Origin: Pseudanabaena cinerea FACHB-1277
GTDB taxonomy: Bacteria > Cyanobacteriota > Cyanobacteriia > Pseudanabaenales > Pseudanabaenaceae
Length of the DNA: 64,000 bases
Reading direction: 5' to 3'
Assembly: GCF_014696345.1 (NCBI RefSeq)
Contig: NZ_JACJPY010000006.1
Coordinates: 1-64,000, forward strand
The translations under genes and the position numbers were made by a program. Every line of letters starts with the position of its first letter. Within the stretch, counting starts at the first letter, position 1. Shown here one piece after another: positions 6,650-37,801 of the stretch. The notes under the pieces are model-generated. The model searched no databases and was not told the origin of the DNA. It saw only the letters and a list, made by a program, of their open reading frames with translations.

Positions 6650-9553
6650 ATGGAATTTAGCACGATCGCCTTCATGTCTAGCATCCCTTGGCTATCCTTA
6701 ATCTCGATTCTGTTTACCCATGGCGCATATGCCCAATTTGTAAATCTGCCCAACCAACAGCTATCAAAGTCAACGGAGATAGCCTTTGCCAATAATATTA
6801 GAACCTTGCTAACGGAAGGCGATCGCTTGCTAGAAATGAAGGATTTCGCAGGGGCGATCGCTCATTATGAAAGAGCTTTAGCCATTGCCGAACATGGTCA
6901 AAATCGTGAGCATCAGGTCTTGATTTTGTCCGCATTAGGGCGTGTTTACGATCTCAATGGCAAATATTTAAAGGCAGAAAAGACTTTTAAAGAAGGGATG
7001 GTGCGGGTTACAGAGTCGAGAAACCCGTCAATGGAAATGCGTCAGTCACAGATCTATTTGCATACTGGCTTAGGGATGACCTATCACAATATTGGCAAAT
7101 ATGAGCAGGCGATCGCCCAACTGAAACAGGCGGTGAGCATATCAGAAAAACTACCGAAGGCTTTGTGGGGCAGCACCTCTATCCCTTGGGAATTTACGCA
7201 TTTTGAGCCGCGTTTTCACCTTGCCACCACCTATCGCTCTACCCGTCAATTTCCGCAAGCAATCTCTCTATTTCAAGAATGCCATGCGATCGCGGTGCGA
7301 GAAAGCGATCGCGAAAAGCAAGCAATTAGCCTCGTTGCCCTTGGACAAACCTACGTCATTATGGGCAATGTCCGCATGGCGCGGCAATATTTTCAACAAG
7401 TCAAGGCATTAGGTTCCTTCCCAAATAACCCTGATTTGGTGAGGGTGATCGATACCCTTGATGTGTTTTCGGGCGATCTTGCAGACATAGCTGAAACATT
7501 CACCATATTCCTCCCTGTGCTGGAGCGCGTCAGTCGAGGCTTGCGCCGCATCGAAGAAGTCACGGCTAATTTGCCGAGTTTTGCCTATGTGGGTCGCAGT
7601 GCCGCCAAGCTAGAGTCTGCCCATACTAAGTTTCTGCAACTGATTCCGCAACTGCGCCAGAAAAATGTTTTTGACTCTTATCAAATTATAGTTGCCACGA
7701 TCAGTGAGATGTCTTCGCTCCTGAAAGAACTAAAAAGTGATGGGGATGGAACTACAGTTGTTGGTTTAGATAATTCTTGCAATCTGGACGAGATTAGAGC
7801 AGTGATCAAGCAGGGTAACTATGAGCGAGGTAATCTTTCTCCTGAAGCAGTTACGGTCATAGTGGAGGTTGCTGACGATCTCTGTAAAATTACTAAATCC
7901 CTTGAAAACTATAATGACAGGCGGCGCAAACAGGGGCAGAAATCGAAGCAAAATTTTGATATGGAGACGATCATCCGTCAGCTTGAAGATGTCGATCGCC
8001 GTTCCGCATCAAGGCGTGGTCAAGTTAATCTAGAAATAGCCCAAAACCAAGTAGCGATCGCCAAGTCATCAGGCAATCCCCTTGATTATGGCAAGGCGCT
8101 AGATTTTCTAGGTAATGCTTACGCATCCCAAAAAGCCTATGCTCAAGCGGAGCAGTCTTTGAGCGAAGCGATCGCCATTTGGGAAAAGTTGCGGGTGGGA
8201 TTGGAAGATAAAGAGGAATATCGGGTGGCTCTATTTGAAACCCAGAATGATACTTACAAGTCTTTGCAGAAAGTACGGATGGCAATGGGCAAGTATTCTG
8301 AAGCCTTAGAATCGGCAGAACAGGGCAGAGCAAGGGCTTTTTTGGCATTATTATCTAGCAAATTTAGCAGCGATCGCCTTGAGCAATATAGCGAACCGCA
8401 GGTAAATATTTCCCAACTTCAACAAATTGCCAGAGATCAACAAATTACAATTGTCTCCTATTCCCTCATTAGCTCCAAATCAGTGGAATTTCTGAGAGAT
8501 GCCTCTGGTACTTCCCAATTATATGTTTGGGTCATCTCACCTCAAGGAGAGATTAGCTGGCGCAATCTTAATTTGCAGCAATGGGAAATGGTCAAGCACC
8601 AAAAATCATTGCGAGAGGTAATTCAAGATTTGCAAGAACGTTTAACTAGCTCTAGTGGAACTATTAGAACTATACCTGATTCGTCCCGTGTTTCACTGCC
8701 CCGCCGCCCCGTTGCTGTCACCAGCGATCGCGATGCCCTTAATGAACTCAAGCAATTACATGAACTTCTCATTGAACCGATCGCCGACCTATTACCCCAA
8801 AGCCCCGATGCGAAGGTTGTATTTGTGCCAGATCAAGCCTTGTTTCTAGTACCTTTTGCCGCCCTCCAAAATAAGTCTGGCAAATATTTAATCGAAGATC
8901 ACACAATTTCCTATAGCCCTTCGATTCAATCTTTAGACTATACAAAAAGGTTAGGGAAAAGATTAGAGAATTTGCCCAAAGCCACAGGAAATCTCATTGT
9001 GGGCAATCCATCGGAAGATCTAGCAGATGCGGCTCTAGAAGCCACAGCGATCGCTAAACTGCTCAATACTCAACCCCTAATTGGCAAGGTTGCCACTAAA
9101 AATAAGGTTTTGGCTCAGATCGAAGATTCGCAAATCATTCACCTTGCGATGCATGGTAACTTCGATGATCGCAATGGCTTAGACAGTGCTTTAAATTTTG
9201 GTTCTCAAGTATTCCTCACCGCCAAGGAGATTTTAAATCTCTCTTTAAGAGCGAATCTCGTAATTTTGAGCGCCTGTAATACTGGCAAGGGTGCAATCAG
9301 GGGCGATGGTGTGATCGGTCTATCACGAGCATTTATTTTGGCTGGCACTCCCCGCATCATTGTTTCTCTCTGGGCTGTCCCCGATGGCGAAACCAGTCAA
9401 TTAATGATGAACTTTTATAGGAATATGGTTGATAATAAATCTATTAATCAAGGTTATGCCCATGCCCTGCGGCAAAGTATGCTCTACACGCTAAAACATA
9501 ACCCCCATCCCCGCAATTGGGCAGCCTTTGGGCTAATTGGGGCAGTTAATTAA
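6650..9553 (+). CDS. Secreted TPR-CHAT (caspase-like) protein, copy 1
   Basis: This 967-residue protein has a signal peptide with a likely cut after AYA (near residue 28), so it should act outside the cytoplasm. TPR repeats cover about residues 50-250 (GDRLLEMKDFAGAIAHYERA and similar) and return at about 470-565. Between them is a family-specific helical insert at about 270-450. The C-terminal CHAT domain (about 690-967) has the His of HLAMHGNF at residue 835 and the Cys of LSACNTGKG at residue 876, the caspase/separase-type dyad, followed by IVSLWAVPD and the closing NWAAFGLIGA. CHAT proteins cleave or bind proteins; the target is unknown. A paralogue follows directly. Confidence 0.85.
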   Translation: MEFSTIAFMSSIPWLSLISILFTHGAYAQFVNLPNQQLSKSTEIAFANNIRTLLTEGDRLLEMKDFAGAIAHYERALAIAEHGQNREHQVLILSALGRVYDLNGKYLKAEKTFKEGMVRVTESRNPSMEMRQSQIYLHTGLGMTYHNIGKYEQAIAQLKQAVSISEKLPKALWGSTSIPWEFTHFEPRFHLATTYRSTRQFPQAISLFQECHAIAVRESDREKQAISLVALGQTYVIMGNVRMARQYFQQVKALGSFPNNPDLVRVIDTLDVFSGDLADIAETFTIFLPVLERVSRGLRRIEEVTANLPSFAYVGRSAAKLESAHTKFLQLIPQLRQKNVFDSYQIIVATISEMSSLLKELKSDGDGTTVVGLDNSCNLDEIRAVIKQGNYERGNLSPEAVTVIVEVADDLCKITKSLENYNDRRRKQGQKSKQNFDMETIIRQLEDVDRRSASRRGQVNLEIAQNQVAIAKSSGNPLDYGKALDFLGNAYASQKAYAQAEQSLSEAIAIWEKLRVGLEDKEEYRVALFETQNDTYKSLQKVRMAMGKYSEALESAEQGRARAFLALLSSKFSSDRLEQYSEPQVNISQLQQIARDQQITIVSYSLISSKSVEFLRDASGTSQLYVWVISPQGEISWRNLNLQQWEMVKHQKSLREVIQDLQERLTSSSGTIRTIPDSSRVSLPRRPVAVTSDRDALNELKQLHELLIEPIADLLPQSPDAKVVFVPDQALFLVPFAALQNKSGKYLIEDHTISYSPSIQSLDYTKRLGKRLENLPKATGNLIVGNPSEDLADAALEATAIAKLLNTQPLIGKVATKNKVLAQIEDSQIIHLAMHGNFDDRNGLDSALNFGSQVFLTAKEILNLSLRANLVILSACNTGKGAIRGDGVIGLSRAFILAGTPRIIVSLWAVPDGETSQLMMNFYRNMVDNKSINQGYAHALRQSMLYTLKHNPHPRNWAAFGLIGAVN

Positions 9554-9557
9554 TGTC

Positions 9558-12457
9558 ATGCCTGACTATAAAATCATGAAAGTCTATTTACCAGTTACAA
9601 TTATTTTTGCTTTGAATGTTGGATTTACGATCGCCATGCCTGAAACAGCGATCGCCCAATCTCATCAATTGATGGCTCAGTCTAGTGCAGCCAAAAATGA
9701 GTTAGAGCGCCTAATTCAAAGGGGCGATCGCGCACTCAGTCAAAATAACTTTAAAGAAGCAATTAGTATTTTTCAACAAGCATCACAGCTTGCTAGACAG
9801 AATCAAGATTTAGACTCTCAGGTATTAATTTTAGTAGGAATTGGCAGGAGCTATGACCTAAGTGGACAATATTTGAAGGCTGAGCAGTCTTTCAAAGAGA
9901 GTTTACAGATACTCTCCCAATTAGCTGGAGAATTTACTTCGATTGATAAAAGAGCTAGACAAAATCGATTAAAAATACTTGCCCATTCGGGGTTAGGTAT
10001 TGCCTATATAAATATTGGCGAATATACCAAAGCTTCTGAAAATCTGCAATTAGCCGTACTTCTATCAAATGGTGAGGCTAAAAATACCAGTTTGTTGATT
10101 CACTTTGAGCCGAGGTTTAAACTAGCGGAGCTATATCAAAAGCAGAAGAAATATCAGGAAGCGATCGCTGCCTTACAACAAGCGCGGATCGTTGCTCAAC
10201 AAATTGGCGATCGCCGTGCTGAAGCCATGACCCTGACTGCGATCGGCAACAATTTTATGAACTTGGGGCAGTTTAACCTAGCATCACAATTCCATGCTCA
10301 AGCAAAGGCTCTAGGTAACTTTCCACAAGAGCCAGAAATTGCTAACGCCCCTGCAAGATCTTCGGGAATAGTTGGCGACCTTGTTTCTGTGGCAGGTTTA
10401 CTCGAAAGACTTACTCCAATCCTGCAAAAGGTGAATCTAAGTATTAGAAAGATGGAAAGGATAACTGCTAATGATTCCAGATTTACAGTTGTCGGTAGAA
10501 CTGCTAACAATTTAGATGAATTGATGCAGAATATATTTAATCTGACCCCAAAACTCAGACAAGGCGATCTAATGTCAGCCTATCCATACCTGCAAAAAGT
10601 GAACCAAAGCATGACCAATCTTTCACGAAACATGAAAGATTTAAATCTATTAATGGAGGAGGTTAAACGCTATCCAGAGAGGTTTCCTGCGCTCAGGCAA
10701 ATGAATATCCAAGACATCAAAGTTTTGCAGGAAATAGAAGGAGAACTTCGCGACCTCAAAAACTCAATAGGGAAGCGTTCTAAAGAGCTAAAAAAAAATT
10801 AGATAGTGCTTTTGCTGGCTCATCTATTCCAATTAATCCAAGGTTAAAATCATCAACCTCCAAAATAAAGCAGCAGAGATCTATTATAGAAGATGTAGAT
10901 TTTATAATCAAAAATTCATCATTAAGATCTAATACGATCAATATTGAAAATGTCAAAAAACAGTTAGAAATTACAAAACGGTCAGGTGATCCTTTAGCCT
11001 ATGGCAAATCTTTACATAATTTAGGACTGCTTTATAAAGGCAGTATGCAATATGCCCTAGCGGAACAGGCTTTAATGGAGGCGATCGCCATTTGGGAAAA
11101 ATTGCGGGTGGGGTTAGAGGATCGAGAAGCTTACCGCGTCTCATTATTTGAAACCCAAAATATTACCTATGAGATATTGCAGCAGGTAAGAATTGCCCTC
11201 AAGAAATATCCTGAAGCCTTAGAAGTTGCCGAACAGGGACGCTCCAGAGCCTTTTTGGCATTACTCGCCAGCAAATTACCACGCAATGATCTCCCTCAAT
11301 ATGCAGAACCGCCCGTCAAGGTGCAACAACTCCAACAAATCGCCCGTGAGCAGAATCTTACAATCGTTTCCTACGGGCTAATCTCAGGATCGGCGATCGC
11401 TGATTATCAACCAATGCGTGGCAGTAGCACCCTTTACGTTTGGGTTATCTCTGCCAAGGGCGAGATTAGTTTCCAGAACCTTAATCTCGAATCATGGGAA
11501 ACTGAAAATGGCTTATTGCTAACGGAAACGATTCAAAAATTGCAAGAAAGGCTCTCTCGCAGTAGCGGCACAATTAGGGATTTCCCCGTATCTCTTCCCC
11601 GCAAACCCTTATCTGCTGCCGAAAGAGATCAAAGCCCCGATGAACTCAAACATCTCTACCAACTTCTCATTCAACCCATTGAAACCTTTCTCCCCAAAGA
11701 CCCCAATGCCCAAGTGGTATTTATCCCGCACAAAGCTCTAGCCCTCGTCCCCTTTGCCGCCCTCAGAGAGCAATCTGGCAAATATCTGATTGAGAAGCAC
11801 ACAATTTCCTACGCCCCCTCCATCCAATCCCTGCGCTTCACCCAAAAACTAGCCAAACTGCCTAAAGGTTCCACTAATTTGATCATTGGTAATCCTGAGG
11901 GAGATCTGCCAGCTTTGTTGAATGCAGAGCAGGAAGCGCAAAATATTGCGAGTTTACTCAAAACTAGGGCAATGATTGGACAGGCTGCCACAAAAATTAA
12001 TCTGCTACAACAAATTAGCCAAGCCAATATCATTCATCTGGCGATGCACGGAGTGTTTAATGATATTGACGGATTAGAGAGCGCTTTGGCTTTCAGTTCC
12101 CAATCAAAACTAACTGCCAAAGAGATTTTAAAGCTGAAACTGCAAGCAAATTTGGTTGTCCTCAGTGCTTGCAACACCGCACAGGGCAAAATTACAGGGG
12201 ATGGGGTGATTGGTTTAGCCCGTTCCTTTATCCTTGCAGGCGCACCGAGCGTGATCGTTTCTCTTTGGTATGTGCCTGATGCCGAAACCAGTCAATTGAT
12301 GGTGGACTTTTATAAAAATATGCTCAATAATAGGCTTAATCGTCAAGCCCAGCATCAAAGCTATGCCCATGCTCTGCGGCGCAGTATGCTCACCACGATG
12401 ATTAACTACCCTCATCCGCGCAATTGGGCAGCCTTCGGGCTAATCGGGGCGCTTTAA
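9558..12457 (+). pseudogene. TPR-CHAT protein copy 2, split by a frame change at an A9 run
   Basis: This is a paralogue of the gene just upstream. The first frame (ATG at 9558 or 9576) encodes a signal peptide ending in AIAQ, TPR repeats and the helical insert, and stops at TAG 10800-10802. The next frame is open from 10799, joins in sense at SAFAGSS and continues with TPR repeats and a CHAT domain with intact His (codon 12047-12049, AMHGVF) and Cys (codon 12170-12172, LSACNTAQG). The break lies in nine A at 10790-10798; one extra A would give one continuous protein of about 967 residues, the length of copy 1. It may be a true mutation, a sequencing error or transcript slippage. All catalytic residues are kept, which argues against long decay. 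The downstream part alone would begin at ATG 11045. Confidence 0.8.
10790..10798 (+). promoter_or_regulatory. A9 homopolymer, possible slippage site
   Basis: Nine consecutive A sit exactly where the reading frame of the second TPR-CHAT gene breaks. Runs of this length are known to make bacterial RNA polymerase add or drop an A. A one-base gain moves the reading from L-K-K-N-stop to L-K-K-K-L-D-S and onward into the CHAT half. No Shine-Dalgarno-like or pseudoknot element is obvious nearby, so a programmed ribosomal shift is less supported than transcript slippage or error. Confidence 0.5.
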
Positions 12458-36094: not shown

Positions 36095-37801
36095 ATGAAC
36101 TCTCAAACATCGGATCAATTGATGGATGGCGCGAATTCTTCCCATGCTGAAAATTATAGTGTCAACCCATTTTTATGGGGTAACATCGCACTTCTAACGA
36201 GTTTGCCTTGGTTATTGGCGATGACGATGGCGGGTTTGGCAGTGGGCGATCCTGTATTTGCATCTTGGTTTGAGATTAGTTTGCTGAGTTTACCAGCGAT
36301 CGCGGTGGTGGCATGGTGGCAGTGGCAGCAGCCTTTTTCTCCTTTCAGTCTCTGGCTAGTTAAGCAGTCATTTAATAGCCTAAGCGATCGCGATCGCCAA
36401 GTACTAGCTCTGCTCAAACAGCACCGCAATGGTTGGTACAGCACAGGCTGGACAGCGATCGCGGTGGCTATAGTCATGTCATTTATTTTTTGTAAGCTTT
36501 ATGTTGCGGCTCCTTTAGCTGAGGTAATTGCACCTTTTCCTGCGGGACTAAGGTTTTTTGGCATTATTTGGGCAGAAATATTTTTTTTAGTTAGCAATGC
36601 GATCGCACAGGCGGGGATATCGGCGCTAAGGATTAAGCTAGCAGCGAGTTCAGATTTAGCGTCATTGCCACCGATCGCGATCGATAAAGTCAAGAATAGT
36701 TTTACAAATCTCGGTAAGCCTGTTAATAACCCTATCTCCCAACCTAAGTTAGATTTGCCTATAAAGCCTACTCTAGTTTTAGAACCCAAGTCTGATGATT
36801 TAACTAAACCTGAGCCTGAAGTTGAAGAGATTACAGTACCAGAAGCGATCGCTGAGTTAGAGCCTAAAGTTGAGGAGATTGTAGAAATTATTCAACCAGA
36901 GGCGATCGCTGATGATTTGGGTGATGTAACTGAGCTAGAGCCTGAAGTTGAGGAGATTGCAGAAATTATTCAACCAGAGGCGATCGCAGAAATTACAACT
37001 GAGTTAGAACCTGAGCTTGAGGAGACTGTAGAAGTTGCAGAACCAGAGGTGATCGCTGAAGACTTGGGTGATTTAACTGAGCTAGAGCCTGAAGTTGAGG
37101 AGATTGCAGAAATTATTCAACCAGAGGCGATCGCTGAAGACTTAGGAGATCTAACTGAGCTAGAGCCTAAAATTGAAGAGATAGCAGAAGTTGCAGAACC
37201 AGAGGCGATCGCTGAAGACTTAGGAGATCTAACTGAGCTAGAGCCTAAAGTTGAGGAGATTGTAGAAATTATTCAACCAGAGGCGATCGCTGATGATTTA
37301 GTTGTTGCAACTGAGTTAGAGCCTGAGACAAACTACTTAACAGAAACAGTAATAAACTTTGAATCAGACTTTGATATTGATGCTGAAATCGCGAAAATGA
37401 TTGCCGAAGAAGAAGCGGCAAAACTAGCAAATATGACAGACTGGCAGCCTGAAATTAATGCCGAAAATGAAAGTGCATTGATAGCAACAGAAATTGATGC
37501 AGAAATTGATGAAGAACTGGAAGAGCTAGTTGCATTTAATGCTTATACCGAACAAATTTTACACAACTACCTCACTGATGAGCCTATTGATGAAGAGGCT
37601 ATTAGTGAAAACCCAGACAACAAAACATACATAGCCACAACAGACCAGAACGAAGCTAAAGCTAAACCTTATCAAATACTAATTGAAGAATTTCTTGTGG
37701 ACAAATATTTAGCCAAGCTAGAGGAATTGGGCAGAACTGAGAAATTAAACCCAGAAAATTTAAACCCAGAAAACCTGCAACCAGAAAATAATAACGAATA
37801 A
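36095..37801 (+). CDS. Membrane protein with six 26-residue acidic repeats
   Basis: Not recognised. This 568-residue protein has four likely membrane helices in residues about 25-175. Residues about 250-405 hold six near-identical 26-residue units of the form LEPEVEEIAEIIQPEAIAED. The rest is acidic (pI very low) and has no enzyme motif. Each repeat includes a HIP1 octamer coding Ala-Ile-Ala. The repeats suggest a flexible acidic arm on the membrane, perhaps a binding platform. It is 67 bp downstream of potD but may have its own promoter. Confidence 0.65.
   Translation: MNSQTSDQLMDGANSSHAENYSVNPFLWGNIALLTSLPWLLAMTMAGLAVGDPVFASWFEISLLSLPAIAVVAWWQWQQPFSPFSLWLVKQSFNSLSDRDRQVLALLKQHRNGWYSTGWTAIAVAIVMSFIFCKLYVAAPLAEVIAPFPAGLRFFGIIWAEIFFLVSNAIAQAGISALRIKLAASSDLASLPPIAIDKVKNSFTNLGKPVNNPISQPKLDLPIKPTLVLEPKSDDLTKPEPEVEEITVPEAIAELEPKVEEIVEIIQPEAIADDLGDVTELEPEVEEIAEIIQPEAIAEITTELEPELEETVEVAEPEVIAEDLGDLTELEPEVEEIAEIIQPEAIAEDLGDLTELEPKIEEIAEVAEPEAIAEDLGDLTELEPKVEEIVEIIQPEAIADDLVVATELEPETNYLTETVINFESDFDIDAEIAKMIAEEEAAKLANMTDWQPEINAENESALIATEIDAEIDEELEELVAFNAYTEQILHNYLTDEPIDEEAISENPDNKTYIATTDQNEAKAKPYQILIEEFLVDKYLAKLEELGRTEKLNPENLNPENLQPENNNE
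36857..37330 (+). repeat. Six tandem 78-bp units inside a gene
   Basis: The units begin at each LEPEVEE-type codon set and are about 78 bp long; copies 4 and 5 are almost identical (AACTGAGCTAGAGCCTAAA occurs several times). Variation in copy number is expected in related strains. Confidence 0.75.

Follow-up and report, generated by a model that had tools for sequence, protein, structure and literature searches.

We analyzed a 64,000-nucleotide stretch of Pseudanabaena cinerea FACHB-1277 DNA (here called the window), in which two TPR-CHAT genes lie in tandem on the plus strand. Copy 1 (6650 to 9553), recognized by sequence, Pfam and tree, encodes a TPR-CHAT protein of 967 aa in a single frame and carries no run of nine A (A9). 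Copy 2 (9576 to 12457) is divided between two frames at an A9 run, which direct reading of the plus strand placed at 10790 to 10798. Its frame-0 ORF (9576 to 10802, in a frame open from 9537) encodes 408 aa, with a signal-peptide-like N-terminus, TPR repeats and long helices according to Pfam, AlphaFold and Foldseek. Frame 0 reads GAG CTA AAA AAA AAT TAG across the site, which contains the heptamer A_AAA_AAA, and ends directly after the run with the TAG at 10800 to 10802, the predicted end of a TPR-only product. The -1 frame opens at 10784, after a TAA, and its stop ends at 12457; by sequence, Pfam and Foldseek this plus-strand ORF holds a linker, a TPR-like stretch and a CHAT caspase-like domain. 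The frames share 19 nt, in which A9 is the sole long homopolymer. The first ATG, GTG or TTG of the -1 frame is the ATG at 11045, and the second half of the plus-strand stretch ahead of it (10799 to 11044) is conserved as protein; this stretch should thus be reached by a change of frame. The split at A9 noted in the initial annotation was confirmed as a real observation, and its statement that the frame stops just after nine A agrees with the TAG read here. The next frame had been described as open from 10799; it is open there, but it starts earlier, at 10784.

The second half matched the CHAT family (PF12770) with 231.5 bits, against a Pfam cut-off of 24, and TPR families were found in the first half. 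The CHAT half contains a His codon at 12047 to 12049 and a Cys codon at 12170 to 12172, and the corresponding columns (H420 and C461) were invariant in an alignment of four orthologues, which bears out the earlier claim that both catalytic residues are kept. We take this His and Cys to be the catalytic pair of the family. By its CHAT score and its His/Cys pair the gene qualifies as a TPR-CHAT gene, with predicted protease activity. The AlphaFold model of the TPR half had a pLDDT of 80 and resembled solved TPR proteins in Foldseek, and the first 50 residues or so past A9 were predicted mostly with a pLDDT below 50, which together place the break at a domain edge. The best Foldseek matches of the CHAT half were the Craspase TPR-CHAT protein Csx29, the transmembrane anti-sigma factor DdvA and separase, although the model's pLDDT of 58 calls for caution here; a sequence search of solved structures gave no match. 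By eye, the N-terminus resembles a Sec signal sequence, so that both products may be exported.

Orthologues were searched in 26 genomes of the genus and then in 38 genomes of the order. Among the genus genomes, three others contained close relatives (61 to 62% identity) whose open frame begins at much the same point: Pseudanabaena sp. UBA1465 (G010), Pseudanabaena biceps PCC 7429 (G001) and Oscillatoriales cyanobacterium CG2_30_44_21 (G008). The TPR half matched the same three genomes, with 57, 53 and 38% identity. The subfamily was present in 4 of the 38 genomes of the order, and no further member was found among these 38. A CHAT profile at 1e-60 matched 16 of the 38, and the further CHAT matches were mostly fused proteins of about 800 to 1,100 aa with 40 to 46% identity. 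Matches were also seen in 24 plasmid records, all below 60% identity; phages gave no match and viral contigs no relative. In the genome of the window, one contig (C118, loci L008 to L010) carries three ORFs with a CHAT domain, spaced about 7 kb from each other.

All four members had exactly nine A at the junction, and all need an identical shift to join the halves, either -1 or a single added base. The initial annotation had proposed comparing relatives for the same A9, and this comparison yielded A9 in four of four orthologues, not ten A. In each of them the TPR and CHAT halves, 38 to 61% identical, were intact and the His/Cys pair was present, so that the clearly decayed CHAT halves which had been named as speaking against a functional gene were absent; the halves were instead under purifying selection. 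The frame-0 stop lay 1 nt past the run in the window and in P. biceps, 22 nt past it in UBA1465 and 31 nt past it in CG2_30_44_21, and the A_AAA_AAA heptamer was in register for a -1 slip in all four. The set supporting a conserved break is limited to these four orthologues.

Substitution rates were consistent with constraint on both halves, dN being well below dS in each. Between the four genes, pS of the CHAT half was 0.68 to 0.72, near saturation, so that the nine unchanged bases are no relic of recent descent. Among the four, dN was 0.19 to 0.34 in the CHAT half (up to 0.41 when copy 1 was included) and 0.27 to 0.62 in the TPR half. Over the 63 to 76 codons that separate the site from the window gene's first ATG, pN was below pS in 10 of 10 pairs. 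The first 37 codons or so past the site were noisy: pN exceeded pS in 3 of 10 pairs, among them the window gene and UBA1465 (pN 0.56 versus pS 0.44 over 18 codons). Weak constraint directly past A9 fits a loose linker, as does the predicted pLDDT below 50 in this region.

We then asked how common A9 runs are in these genomes. They proved rare: counted on both strands, there were 36 in the genome of the window (G000, 4.77 Mb), 22 in P. biceps, 26 in CG2_30_44_21 and 57 in UBA1465, and the chance of finding A9 within 50 nt on either side of the site in all three relatives, calculated by hand from these counts, was about 5e-11. As controls, 28 of the 36 runs of the window genome were listed and 25 stretches read (two at contig starts were omitted and one A10 had been counted twice), together with the 21 runs of P. 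biceps other than that of the CHAT gene. One further split gene was found among them, larC of the window genome. By the limits of our script, A9 lay inside a frame open on both sides in 2 runs of the window genome and 9 of P. biceps; A9 alone is therefore no mark of a programme. Five contigs of the window genome (C9, C12, C13, C38 and C66) have an A9 11 bases from their end, which probably marks the border of a repeat at which assembly stopped.

Three of the 11 in-frame control genes, picked for looking conserved and named by eye as ComF, SNF2-like and DUF1400-like, were compared with their orthologues. The run was kept in none of 62 (0/24, 0/13 and 0/25, respectively). In the SNF2-like and DUF1400-like controls the lysines were largely kept and the A run was mostly broken by AAG, which indicates that nine-A runs vanish fast when nothing holds them. 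The same loci (L102, L093 and L126) and their relatives, with in-frame A9 absent from 62 of 62 and lysines often kept, suggest that long A runs either turn over quickly or are selected against. Slippage genes are recognized by a homopolymer of about nine A or T that different species keep at the frame junction; the run was kept in 4/4 TPR-CHAT genes versus 0/62 controls.

The other A9-split gene, larC, belongs to the Ni_insertion family (PF01969). Its halves cover profile positions 1 to 238 and 239 to 374 and match LarC1 and LarC2, which are separate NCBIfam models; in the window genome the run lies at 37223 to 37231 of contig C13 (L109). Relatives occurred in 37 of the 38 genomes of the order, with none in P. 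biceps. We read 30 loci (the others being L132 to L160), of which 29 were split, 25 at A9 and 4 at A10, and one was fused. Every split locus had a -1 shift with a stop 2 to 18 nt past the run and an A_AAA_AAA heptamer in register for a -1 slip (29/29). Eight other matches fell outside these 30 loci; in three, a long open frame (329 to 407 aa) suggests fusion. The run starts at codon position 3 in the CHAT genes (XXA AAA AAA AAN) and at position 1 in larC (AAA AAA AAA). The two A's that do not belong to the heptamer therefore follow it in the CHAT genes and precede it in larC, and they are kept in both. Nine A kept in two codon registers indicate that the run length is held, not the heptamer alone, an argument held to moderate strength by the small number of CHAT genes (four) and by the lysine kept in larC. 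Judged by these sequences, larC is a lineage-wide recoded gene. The pair larC1/larC2 is known to be joined by frameshifting in Lactobacillus; our literature search for larC frameshifting found no paper.

The surroundings of the split gene differed between the window and the relatives. In the window, copy 2 sits behind the fused tandem copy and a response regulator (identified by Pfam), with amidohydrolase-like and Rieske-like ORFs recognized by eye nearby, and is without the cluster found in the relatives. In all three relatives, the recoded TPR-CHAT gene follows, in this order, an HTH/NTPase gene (NB-ARC/NACHT-like), a Ser/Thr kinase-CHASE2 gene and a DUF928 gene (L044:1735-9987, L045:2657-9988 and L046:337-8589), and in two of the three a Uma2-like gene lies between HTH/NTPase and kinase-CHASE2. 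Domains were assigned by Pfam for four genes of UBA1465 and two of P. biceps, and by eye for the others. PADLOC matches of the cluster kinase fall in its kinase domain and are little informative. In a tree of the CHAT half, copy 1 was sister to copy 2 of the window (support 99/98); in an unrooted TPR tree of five rows it was not. Both recombination between the tandem copies and an older duplication would fit, and the trees are compatible with copy 1 having lost A9 or never having had it.

Several explanations of the split gene were weighed. One base would join the frames and homopolymers are error-prone, as expected of an assembly error or a pseudogene whose true run is ten A. However, the same A9 was found in four separate assemblies, in-frame A9 runs elsewhere in these assemblies read correctly, and the halves are intact with dN well below dS. 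Since A9 and both halves are conserved, we rejected error and decay, which we regard as extremely improbable. Phase variation, in which replication slippage in A9 would switch the gene on or off between cells, draws on the ready mutability of long homopolymers, which PMC1088944 also states. The run is, however, exactly nine in four of four species, all in the same off frame, and larC retains the -1 offset in 29 of 29 loci, whether its run has 9 or 10 A, so that the frame relation is held rather than the run length; with no run-length variation across the four species, this candidate was also dropped as very unlikely. Two separate proteins, with the CHAT half made from its own start, would have start codons at their disposal, such as the ATG at 11045 in the window or an ATG at +72 nt in UBA1465. 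Counted from the first A, however, the first ATG, GTG or TTG past the site lies at 255 nt in the window, 72 nt in UBA1465, and 210 and 84 nt in the other two, and none is at a place common to the four orthologues. Moreover, conserved -1-frame protein precedes the ATG at 11045, a separate CHAT protein would lose the signal-like N-terminus, and the wider homologues are fused among the matches listed. An independent CHAT start was rejected for want of a common start codon, and we hold it to be most improbable.

Programmed -1 ribosomal frameshifting, a tandem slip of lysine tRNA at A_AAA_AAA on an mRNA that keeps its nine A, deserves more weight, the heptamer being in register in all four orthologues and in all 29 split larC loci. 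Purine-rich stretches were seen by eye 10 to 20 nt upstream of the site in some orthologues; they are variable, and no clear Shine-Dalgarno-like element is shared by all four. Stem-loops in the 60 nt past the site were not of note (z between +1.5 and -1.7 for energies against mononucleotide shuffles); P. biceps has none at all in this interval, and a comparison of the four orthologues found no downstream stem-loop in common. As far as stem-loops in this interval go, RNA structure is an improbable stimulator, and slippage by RNA polymerase fits better than -1 frameshifting. The two A's outside the heptamer, kept on the 3' side in CHAT and on the 5' side in larC, point in the same direction. We therefore consider ribosomal frameshifting rather unlikely.

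Recoding of some kind at A9 is, on this comparative evidence, very likely, and we infer that RNA polymerase slippage is probably its main route. The region from 9576 to 12457 is probably one TPR-CHAT gene under programmed recoding, a deliberate switch between a sensor-only and a full-length protein. RNA polymerase would slip on A9 and add one A to some transcripts; these would be translated into the complete TPR-CHAT protein (about 960 aa), and unslipped transcripts would give the 408-aa TPR protein, with its stop adjoining the run. That slippage at A9 yields a TPR-only and a full TPR-CHAT form had been proposed in the initial annotation; it is now the best-supported candidate mechanism, backed by larC. 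A functional TPR-CHAT gene that makes two products in this way is likely, whatever the short form does. Against recoding, copy 1 shows that the fused form is tolerated and that a TPR-CHAT protein can do without a split. Devoid of the protease, the short form would be a TPR scaffold; as a partner, a decoy or a scaffold of this kind it might set the dose of the caspase-like enzyme, the ratio of the products being set, presumably, by slippage. More tentatively, the conserved site may fix the ratio of a protease-free TPR sensor to a caspase-like full-length protein, both with a signal-like N-terminus, as a dose control that in three of the four species stands beside the CHASE2-kinase/DUF928/STAND-like cluster. 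A role in signalling or defence would be a guess.

If this reading holds, recoding controls a bacterial enzyme of the caspase-like kind, and with larC recoded in the same lineage, A9 recoding would be a working device in these cyanobacteria. Genes split in this manner are usually annotated as broken, and recoding can be told from decay simply, by a homopolymer that persists at the frame junction where in-frame runs vanish. Slippage at A9 is already known; its use on a TPR-CHAT gene did not turn up in the literature searched, which most subscription papers lie outside. Term searches of the main text of PMC3711429 and of the available part of PMC5009743 did not find it either. For CHAT domains and frameshifts in cyanobacteria, a genome analysis of Mastigocladus was the one match listed. 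Searches for a CHAT domain with CHASE2 found no literature, and no Pseudanabaena paper on frameshifting or slippage was among the matches listed.

A run of nine A or T supports efficient slippage in vivo in bacteria, as in Thermus thermophilus dnaX, which slips at nine A, in Shigella spa13 and in IS elements, including those of Nostoc (PMC5009743 and PMC1088944). Like dnaX, the TPR-CHAT gene has nine A in the sense strand and would make a long and a short product; the long product of dnaX, however, is encoded in a single frame and slippage gives the short one, whereas here the short product is the one read from the genomic frame. It resembles spa13 in that slippage would lengthen a short frame-0 product at its C-terminus (25 to 30% of the product in spa13; PMC5009743), but spa13 is an unrelated protein without a protease. 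With Craspase TPR-CHAT (Csx29) it shares the TPR and CHAT domains and the best predicted fold matches. It scored 50.9 bits against the NCBIfam Csx29 model, however, whose cut-off is 300, and unlike Craspase it has a signal-like N-terminus in the window gene; no Cas7-11 was seen among the neighbouring ORFs read by eye. LarC1/LarC2 of the same genus shows the same arrangement of A9 (or A10), a -1 shift, a stop close behind and intact halves, but its run starts at codon position 1 instead of 3, and it is a metal-cofactor enzyme found across almost the whole order.
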